Below, one piece after another: positions 13,617-14,573 of a stretch of DNA of 44,415 bases. The notes under the pieces are model-generated. The model did not search any database, had not been told where the DNA came from, and worked only from the letters and a program-made list of their open reading frames with translations. The position numbers and the translations under genes were made by a program. Source of the stretch: Candidatus Omnitrophota bacterium (lineage in GTDB: Bacteria; Omnitrophota; Gorgyraeia; Gygaellales; Profunditerraquicolaceae); assembly GCA_028717245.1 (NCBI GenBank), contig JAQUOD010000006.1, forward strand, positions 51,846 to 96,260, read 5' to 3'. Position 1 is the first letter of the stretch. Each line of letters begins with the position of its first letter.

Positions 13617-13689
13617 GCTGGCGTAGCTCAGTTGGTAGAGCTCCTCACTTGTAATGAGGAGGTCGCCCGTTCAATTCGGGTCGCCAGCT
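13617..13689 (+). tRNA. tRNA-Thr (TGT)
   Basis: Acceptor GCTGGCG (13617-13623) with CGCCAGC (13682-13688), discriminator T, D stem GCTC/GAGC, anticodon stem CCTCA/TGAGG, loop CTTGTAA (anticodon TGT at 13650-13652), T arm with TTCAATT loop. CCA is not encoded. It opens a Thr-Tyr-Gly tRNA order typical of bacteria, here interrupted by repeats and a GIY-YIG gene. Confidence 0.95.
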
Positions 13690-13702: not shown

Positions 13703-13726
13703 ATGGGCAGGTACCCAAGTGGCCAA
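13703..13726 (+). repeat. Duplicated 5' end of tRNA-Tyr (direct repeat with 14168-14191)
   Basis: 24 bp identical to 14168-14191, which spans two upstream bases and the first 22 nt of tRNA-Tyr. The copies are 465 bp apart and bracket the three 62-bp repeats and the GIY-YIG gene, so they look like the target duplication or attachment sites of an inserted segment. Confidence 0.9.
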
Positions 13727-13727
13727 T

Positions 13728-13913
13728 CCGCCTACGCTCACTGCGTTCGCTACGGCGGACCCGCCGAAGCACGAAGTGCATAGGCGGGACCGCCTACGCT
13801 CACTGCGTTCGCTACGGCGGACCCGCCGAAGCACGAAGTGCATAGGCGGGACCGCCTACGCTCACTGCGTTCGCTACGGCGGACCCGCCGAAGCACGAAG
13901 TGCATAGGCGGGA
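13728..13913. repeat. Three identical 62-bp tandem repeats built of two palindromes
   Basis: Units start at 13728, 13790 and 13852 and are 62 bp each without visible change. Each holds a hairpin bounded by CCGCC and GGCGG, then CCCGCC ... GGCGGG with an inner GCAC-GAA-GTGC stem. The high identity implies recent amplification. Not a CRISPR: there are no unique spacers. Confidence 0.93.
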
Positions 13914-13925
13914 GGGGGTATATAA

Positions 13926-14207
13926 ATGGCTTTCGTATATGTCTTAAAGAGTTCAAAGGATAATAAACTATACGTAGGCTCAACTCGCCAGAATATAAAA
14001 GAGCGGATAAATCGCCATAATAATGGACAAGTTCAGTCTACTAAATATAGACGACCACTTTCTCTTTTATATAGTGAGCATTTCGATGATTATTCACATG
14101 CCAGAAAAAAAGAATTATATTTAAAATCTGGCAGTGGCAGAGAGCATTTAAATAGAATTTTAGTAAGATGGGCAGGTACCCAAGTGGCCAAAGGGGGCAG
14201 ACTGTAA
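13926..14207 (+). CDS. GIY-YIG nuclease-like protein, 3' end running into tRNA-Tyr
   Basis: 93 aa. FVYVLKSS (3-10) and KLYVGST (14-20) are the two GIY-YIG strands; R27 in KERINRH and E63 in RKKELYLKSGSGREHL are the expected catalytic Arg and Glu. This is the small single-domain (YhbQ/UPF0213-like) class, with no DNA-binding extension. The last 13 codons (RWAGTQVAKGGRL) come from the start of tRNA-Tyr, so the natural 3' end seems to have been replaced by the tRNA. Together with the 24-bp tRNA duplication and the tandem repeats upstream, it may be cargo or driver of a tiny mobile segment. GGGGG lies 8 bp before the ATG. Confidence 0.85.
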   Translation: MAFVYVLKSSKDNKLYVGSTRQNIKERINRHNNGQVQSTKYRRPLSLLYSEHFDDYSHARKKELYLKSGSGREHLNRILVRWAGTQVAKGGRL

Positions 14208-14252
14208 ATCTGTTGCACTTGTGCTTCGTAGGTTCGAATCCTACCCTGCCCA
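14170..14252 (+). tRNA. tRNA-Tyr (GTA)
   Basis: Acceptor GGGCAGG (14170-14176) with CCTGCCC (14245-14251), discriminator A14252, anticodon loop CTGTAAA (anticodon GTA), long class II variable arm, T loop TTCGAAT. CCA not encoded. The first 38 nt overlap the end of the GIY-YIG frame. Confidence 0.95.
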
Positions 14253-14258
14253 TTTTAG

Positions 14259-14334: not shown

Positions 14335-14407
14335 GCGGGAGTAGTTTTCCGCCAAGCAATTTCATAACGGGCGGAATCCCGTCTGAAGATTTATTATTTG
14401 GACGGGA
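14335..14407 (+). other. Overlapping alternative hairpins between tRNA-Tyr and tRNA-Gly
   Basis: CGGGA and TCCGCC on the left (14336-14353) can pair with GGCGGA and TCCCG on the right (14371-14381). TCCCGTC (14377-14383) can instead pair with GACGGGA (14401-14407). The two structures exclude each other. Further on, TCATTTTTT and AAAAAATGA (near 14428-14456) form another hairpin. The remainder of 14253-14499 holds no gene I can see. Confidence 0.5.
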
Positions 14408-14499
14408 CAGTGGTAGAACAATAGTCATTTTTTGTGGCTAACTTATATAAAAAATGATCCTGAGCTGCGGTAGCAGCGAAGGACCTTACGAATAGTAAT

Positions 14500-14573
14500 G
14501 CGGGCATAGCACAGAGGAAGTGCAGTAGCCTTCCAAGCTACCTACACGGGTTCGAGTCCCGTTGCCCGCTCCA
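14500..14573 (+). tRNA. tRNA-Gly (TCC), CCA encoded
   Basis: Acceptor GCGGGCA (14500-14506) with TGCCCGC (14563-14569), discriminator T, genomic CCA (14571-14573). D stem GCAC/GTGC, anticodon stem GTAGC/GCTAC, loop CTTCCAA (anticodon TCC), T loop TTCGAGT. Only 7 bp separate it from the next ATG. Confidence 0.95.

Follow-up and report, generated by a model that had tools for sequence, protein, structure and literature searches.

Why does the beginning of a tRNA-Tyr gene occur twice, on either side of a small nuclease gene, in the genome of an Omnitrophota bacterium? The question was raised by a sequence-only reading of a 44,415-nt stretch of DNA (hereafter, the window), in which tRNA-Thr, tRNA-Tyr and tRNA-Gly genes follow one another (Table 1). 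That reading described a 24-bp exact direct repeat that covers the tRNA-Tyr start and brackets three identical palindromic repeats and a small GIY-YIG gene ending within the intact tRNA. All these features were recovered: the two exact copies scored 24 compared with 12 at most in shuffled sequences, which is far beyond chance, three 62-nt units precede the ORF, and the 93-aa product matches the Pfam GIY-YIG family (PF01541, E=8.6e-16).

Anatomy of the tRNA-Tyr locus

The identification of the repeat as the start of tRNA-Tyr holds, with its extent refined to nt −1 to 23. Since AGGGGG resumes the tRNA sequence (nt 24-29) after the palindromes, the left copy amounts to a remnant some 29 nt long whose D-loop position holds the array. 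The 62-bp repeats are therefore present between the tRNA copies, as had been described, but not as simple cargo, because they sit inside the remnant at a loop position. AGGGGG doubles as a Shine-Dalgarno-like stretch, the ATG of the ORF following within 8 nt, and at the other end the intact tRNA-Tyr supplies the final codons of the ORF and its TAA stop, which is anticodon-loop sequence. The locus thus contains a unit, composed of the GIY-YIG ORF and a second tRNA 5′ copy, inside the ancestral tRNA-Tyr position, with a 5′ remnant upstream and a complete tRNA downstream. Further along, a second remnant without a nuclease gene, carrying two palindromes (14347-14376 and 14377-14407), precedes the intact tRNA-Gly.

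Table 1. Features of the tRNA-Thr/tRNA-Tyr/tRNA-Gly locus (positions within the window)
Feature	Position	Strand	Basis or remark
tRNA-Thr(TGT)	13617..13689	+	Upstream neighbour; ARAGORN, Rfam
tRNA-Tyr 5′ remnant, nt −1 to 23	13703..13726	+	24/24 identity to 14168-14191
Three tandem 62-bp double-palindrome repeats	13727 (or 13728)..13913	+	Remnant D-loop position, after nt 23
AGGGGG, remnant continuation (tRNA nt 24-29)	13913..13918	+	From sequence; k+1 continuation in most other loci
GIY-YIG nuclease ORF, 93 aa	13926..14207	+	Stop inside tRNA-Tyr
tRNA-Tyr(GTA), intact, re-formed downstream of the insertion	14169..14253	+	ARAGORN; Rfam 60.6 bits
Second remnant, partial tRNA-Gly: GCGGGAGTAGTTT / double palindrome 14347-14407 / CAGTGGTAGAACAATAGTC	14335..14426	+	Sequence
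tRNA-Gly(TCC), intact	14500..14573	+	ARAGORN, Rfam

An insert flanked by direct repeats of tRNA sequence recalls an integrase-type genomic island or a prophage that uses the tRNA as its attachment site. That idea was not borne out: the insert is shorter than 500 bp and holds the repeats and one nuclease ORF only, no integrase is present, and the repeat corresponds to the 5′ end of the tRNA, with no 3′-end att site. A PHROG search gave no match, and of two scans of viral contigs the first returned nothing and the second one fragmentary relative, without a tRNA, which speaks against a phage origin and leaves an island or prophage extremely improbable. A group I or group II intron with a nuclease ORF was ruled out too, since no catalytic intron RNA surrounds the ORF (the Rfam matches in the window are tRNAs only) and the downstream tRNA is intact.

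The window protein combines the GIY-YIG domain with the catalytic Tyr, Tyr, Arg and Glu that define the superfamily; Y5, Y16, G18, R27, H31 and E63 are invariant among nine diverse members. It matches UPF0213 structures (E=2.5e-12), and its AlphaFold2 model (pLDDT 94) places UPF0213 proteins first among solved relatives, followed by Slx1 and I-TevI as fold matches. TIGR01453 is matched by the N-terminal part alone, under the cut-off. Most relatives measure 80-120 aa and, like the window protein, extend scarcely beyond the catalytic domain. Homing enzymes of the I-TevI type typically carry a DNA-binding domain; no separate C-terminal one is evident in the 93-aa window protein, which thereby falls outside that type. 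Judging from substitution rates (dN/dS 0.07-0.31 among tRNA-adjacent relatives, where measurable), the nuclease is under strong purifying selection. Silent sites between species are mostly saturated, which weighs against asserting recent movement.

Empty sites in relatives and recurrence at other tRNA genes

The order Thr-Tyr-Gly-thymidylate-synthase-like gene is conserved in relatives, and comparison of tRNA-Thr/Tyr junctions, which the sequence-only reading had proposed, revealed empty sites. In nine relatives with uninterrupted junctions, 9-140 nt separate the two tRNAs (below 75 nt in eight), compared with 479 nt in the window, in which 13 nt lie between tRNA-Thr and the remnant; the Thr-Tyr-Gly order, said to be split, has been widened at this spacer but is itself kept. 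The gyrA/tRNA-Glu/glmS site is empty in about a dozen relatives, with 8-82 nt between gyrA and the tRNA, and several of these empty sites hold palindrome-only partial copies. At the six sites with a GIY gene, the tRNA lies 355-578 nt from gyrA and a remnant occupies the old position. As the remnant is found where the tRNA used to be and the occupied tRNA is farther away, it is the remnant that represents the start of the original tRNA, and the tRNA re-formed downstream has been displaced. Occupied and empty alleles at a conserved site, the pattern expected of homing elements, are therefore present at both Thr/Tyr and gyrA/tRNA-Glu/glmS. The empty junctions, the ancestral position of the remnants and the equivalent insertions described below support the proposal that a 5′-end insertion duplicated the tRNA start, and occupancy is patchy rather than fixed across the phylum. 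Three loci of one family (L232, L233, L239) have an unrelated 150-aa ORF between gyrA and tRNA-Glu.

The genome to which the window belongs contains two small GIY-YIG genes, each directly upstream of a tRNA that it overlaps (Tyr and Glu). A profile derived from tRNA-adjacent members yielded 163 small GIY ORFs of the phylum. On the same strand as the ORF, a tRNA lies no more than 250 nt downstream in 78 cases and no more than 250 nt upstream in 22; on the opposite strand there is none in either direction. Because of how that profile was made, the 69 ORFs fetched by the window protein alone provide the less biased figure: a downstream same-strand tRNA accompanies 21 of them, 15 of which also have a 5′ remnant, when by our own estimate tRNA density would give fewer than one downstream tRNA. 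A 5′ remnant of the same tRNA lies upstream in 56 of the 78 loci, against a chance level of about 6% obtained with mismatched tRNAs. The arrangement was also found in Giovannonibacteria, at a tRNA-Lys (L008); in the class to which that locus belongs, 16 of 33 ORFs are followed by a tRNA on their own strand, none by one on the other strand, and 11 show remnants. GIY-YIG genes at tRNA 5′ ends with matching partial copies, which the sequence-only reading had suggested looking for, thus occur in a second lineage and, as dozens of equivalent insertions, at other tRNAs. About 40% of the related GIY ORFs lie near no tRNA, and this weighs against a homing reading. The notion that GIY genes downstream of tRNAs have 3′ remnants as a rule was dropped, since the threshold was reached in two of 16 cases (plus L056 by eye).

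Nuclease relationships were examined in a tree of 154 domains, which has few alignment columns and many weak forks. tRNA adjacency clusters on it, requiring 21 changes compared with 51.7 after shuffling, and isotype clades can be distinguished: two for Glu, one for fMet and one for Arg, the window protein falling in a group with Tyr and Ser-TGA. On this tree, nuclease lineages follow the tRNA isotype and would represent target-specific lineages. Both Glu clades are found at the same tRNA within one family, a poor fit to simple vertical descent.

These results bear on the proposal that nothing here is mobile, that is, that replication slippage or recombination generated partial tandem tRNA duplications and a UPF0213-like host housekeeping gene was retained between the copies by chance. 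In agreement with it, the same genome has nuclease-free partial duplications at Lys-TTT, Lys-CTT, Phe and Gly, relatives have them too, and the best match of the remnants is their own tRNA. The proposal leaves unaccounted for the isotype-specific nuclease clades, the patchy occupancy of one conserved site and the fact that GIY ORFs specifically fill duplications at many isotypes, in two lineages and always on the same strand. We consider it quite unlikely.

The source of the restored tRNA part can be approached through the remnants. Those of tRNA-Glu share 98% identity with their own intact copy compared with 85% for that of other species, which makes the duplication local, recent or homogenised. 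In L151, the acceptor strand of the remnant differs at three positions from the intact tRNA, which pairs with itself, and L140, L029 and L098 are weaker cases of such a difference. Because the acceptor-stem comparison produced off-by-one or palindrome-interrupted artefacts (L025, L111, L132, L078, L122, L129), only these four loci are cited as suggestive. Their mismatches fit the entry of an entire foreign allele of the tRNA, with co-conversion, although a later compensatory change may account for them instead.

Remnants and palindromic repeats

Across loci, the general layout consists of tRNA nt 1 to k, a palindrome, nt k+1 to m, the GIY ORF and a complete tRNA. The remnant end m lies at about 27-62, and the GIY ATG often follows within 20 nt. 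Inserts of at least 15 nt are present in 54 of the 56 remnants, with folding z-scores below −2 in 52 (−6.6 for the window insert). Values of k cluster near 13, at 17-23 and at 35-39, which correspond to the D-loop edges and the anticodon loop; in L039, L075 and L099 a hairpin stands in place of the anticodon arm. The tRNA resumes exactly at k+1 in most two-piece remnants, as judged by a search confined to nucleotides after k and hence also by inspection of the printed loci, in which no target-site duplication is visible by eye. Mirror forms, with the intact tRNA followed by the GIY gene and a 3′ remnant, are found in L087, L154 and L056, and tandem insertions in L045 and L107.

One could suppose that the palindrome-bearing remnant acts as a tRNA-like leader through which the GIY-YIG gene is controlled, in a stable host regulation unit. 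In its favour, the tRNA stems are mostly free of palindromes and the remnants are nearly identical to the intact tRNA; yet the truncation points vary, the anticodon arm is sometimes lost (the three loci just mentioned) and occupancy is patchy between close relatives, all of which make a leader very unlikely.

Palindrome-only remnants, without a nuclease gene, exist on either side of tRNAs and weigh against the homing reading. In the genome of the window, whose tRNAs were surveyed through the search loci, such 5′ remnants of 13-16 nt lie at −54 to −96 nt relative to tRNA-Lys-TTT, Lys-CTT and Phe (L194, L197, L208), and in the two Lys remnants a palindrome arm runs into sequence complementary to the tRNA start. 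In L226, L228 and L230, the intact tRNA-Glu is followed by nuclease-less 3′ remnants of it (as tandem copies in L226 and L228) whose T-loop position is taken by palindromes. A third tRNA-Glu copy (nt 18-75) follows the intact tRNA in L025 (1827-1950, reverse strand), and its anticodon-loop palindrome is shared with the upstream remnant.

No intact 62-mer occurs elsewhere in the genome. The two main palindrome motif patterns occur in this genome 12 and 41 times (1 and 10 in controls), and six of these 53 occurrences fall in tRNA remnants, whose combined length is a few hundred bases only. That palindromes generally insert into hairpin loops was rejected, given that a significant flanking stem surrounds only one of 23 other genomic palindromes. 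One palindrome type is restricted to tRNA-fMet GIY loci and one tRNA-Glu remnant that lacks a nuclease, in a genome where an fMet element is present as well, and a 20-bp palindrome recurs across remnants of several isotypes in both lineages. The palindromes are either a component of the system or dispersed repeats that persist only in surplus tRNA copies.

If they are a component, the palindromes might be the primary mobile units, hitting tRNA loops with GIY-YIG as their mobilising nuclease, much as in REP/RAYT but with a different enzyme. The loop positions in most of the 56 remnants (54 with an insert), the usually exact tRNA continuation, the palindrome type confined to fMet loci and one same-genome Glu remnant, and the concentration in tRNA remnants (6/53) are in line with this explanation. 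Against it, palindrome position and sequence differ among orthologous gyrA/tRNA-Glu/glmS loci, as if inserted independently of the ORF, and most other genomic palindromes lie outside hairpin loops; we regard it as unlikely. Nuclease and tRNA-loop palindromes might instead form one two-part mobile system, in which a minimal, structure-selective nuclease opens tRNA genes at loops, autonomous units carry the nuclease and a rescue tRNA, and palindrome-only partial copies of the tRNA are non-autonomous and mobilised in trans. This is a tentative possibility, on the unlikely side.

Other unusual sequences were noticed at these loci. In four relatives (L162, L164, L170, L173), tRNA-Tyr has an anticodon-loop insert that by eye resembles a group I intron, and in L162 a helix-turn-helix ORF overlaps the tRNA-Tyr 5′ end. 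A LAGLIDADG_3 ORF lies between a tRNA-Leu 5′ fragment and the intact tRNA-Leu(TAA) in L169 (2968-3627, − strand), which is the same architecture with another homing-nuclease family. The tRNAs downstream of the GIY elements in L010 and L011 (fMet and probably Asn) are interrupted by intron-like sequences, so that two kinds of selfish DNA meet on one tRNA. The GIY ORF of L037, with no same-strand tRNA nearby, ends in the perfect palindrome ATTTCGAACGGGGTTTACCCCGTTCGAAAT, and the half-sites of this palindrome are found again on both sides of the gene.

A proposed mechanism and its relation to known systems

The reading that we favour, with a probability of roughly two in three, is that of a minimal mobile element, free-standing and homing-endonuclease-like, which targets a tRNA gene and restores it by its own copy. 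We infer cleavage and mobility from sequence patterns: the nuclease would cut an unoccupied tRNA gene, and the occupied copy would serve as repair template, so that the unit is installed. The unit would bring the missing 5′ part of the tRNA, at some loci perhaps the whole tRNA, and consequently the essential tRNA would stay functional and the host survive. The palindromic repeat at the D- or anticodon loop of the leftover tRNA piece may have been collected afterwards or may have arrived with it; in the window it would then have been amplified to three copies. Against homing, remnant and intact copy are usually identical in sequence, although the intact copy would have to escape being cut again.

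If this reading is true, tRNA genes of many uncultured bacteria are frequent homes for tiny selfish nuclease genes that survive through repair of the essential gene they break, in what looks like a widespread and largely unnoticed kind of selfish DNA. It would account for many tRNA-overlapping genes annotated as 'GIY-YIG nuclease family' and for tRNA fragments around intact tRNAs, and would join fungal mitochondrial mobile ORFs, phage SegB and CPR rRNA insertions in one strategy. The elements would also offer a compact model for target finding by homing enzymes with almost no DNA-binding domain and for how RNA-gene loops acquire palindromic repeats.

Among known systems, REP/RAYT (REPIN) elements associate an HUH tyrosine transposase (RAYT) with REP palindromes; palindromes are present here too, but the linked enzyme is a GIY-YIG protein, which sets the elements apart. 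The UPF0213 or small GIY-YIG proteins BH0048 and EF2693 are the nearest solved relatives in sequence, BH0048 also in fold; they differ in being structural-genomics entries, and we know of no tRNA context for them. We found no published description of a bacterial tRNA arrangement of this kind in the open-access literature.

CPR rRNA genes contain non-intron insertions bearing GIY-YIG at the tops or bases of stem-loops (PMC11270868). As in our loci, GIY-YIG ORFs occur in structural RNA genes of similar bacteria without an intron signature; the target is rRNA, however, and in the parts of that article available to us gene-end restoration is not described and the main text does not mention tRNA. 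SegB of phages T4/T6 is a free-standing GIY-YIG homing endonuclease beside tRNA-Tyr that is implicated in cutting tRNA-containing DNA, the tRNA and nuclease being amplified in tandem (PMC13096335 and earlier studies cited there). SegB is a larger protein of phages, for which no palindrome-bearing tRNA remnant is described, whereas the elements reported here reside in bacterial chromosomes at many isotypes. A parallel in working, as with SegB, is provided by fungal mitochondrial mobile ORFs with duplicated gene ends, in atp6 of Allomyces and atp6, atp9, cox2 and nad3 of Glomus (PMC3630166). There, a GIY-YIG or LAGLIDADG ORF has entered an essential gene and brought a substitute for the gene end, and the native end persists as a relic. 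Those ORFs are mitochondrial and invade the 3′ ends of protein-coding genes, whereas the elements described here occupy bacterial tRNA genes, mostly at their 5′ ends, with a much smaller nuclease and palindromes in the relic. Nevertheless, the ORF, the duplicated target end and the native relic are all present in both, a likeness of working that implies no claim of descent.
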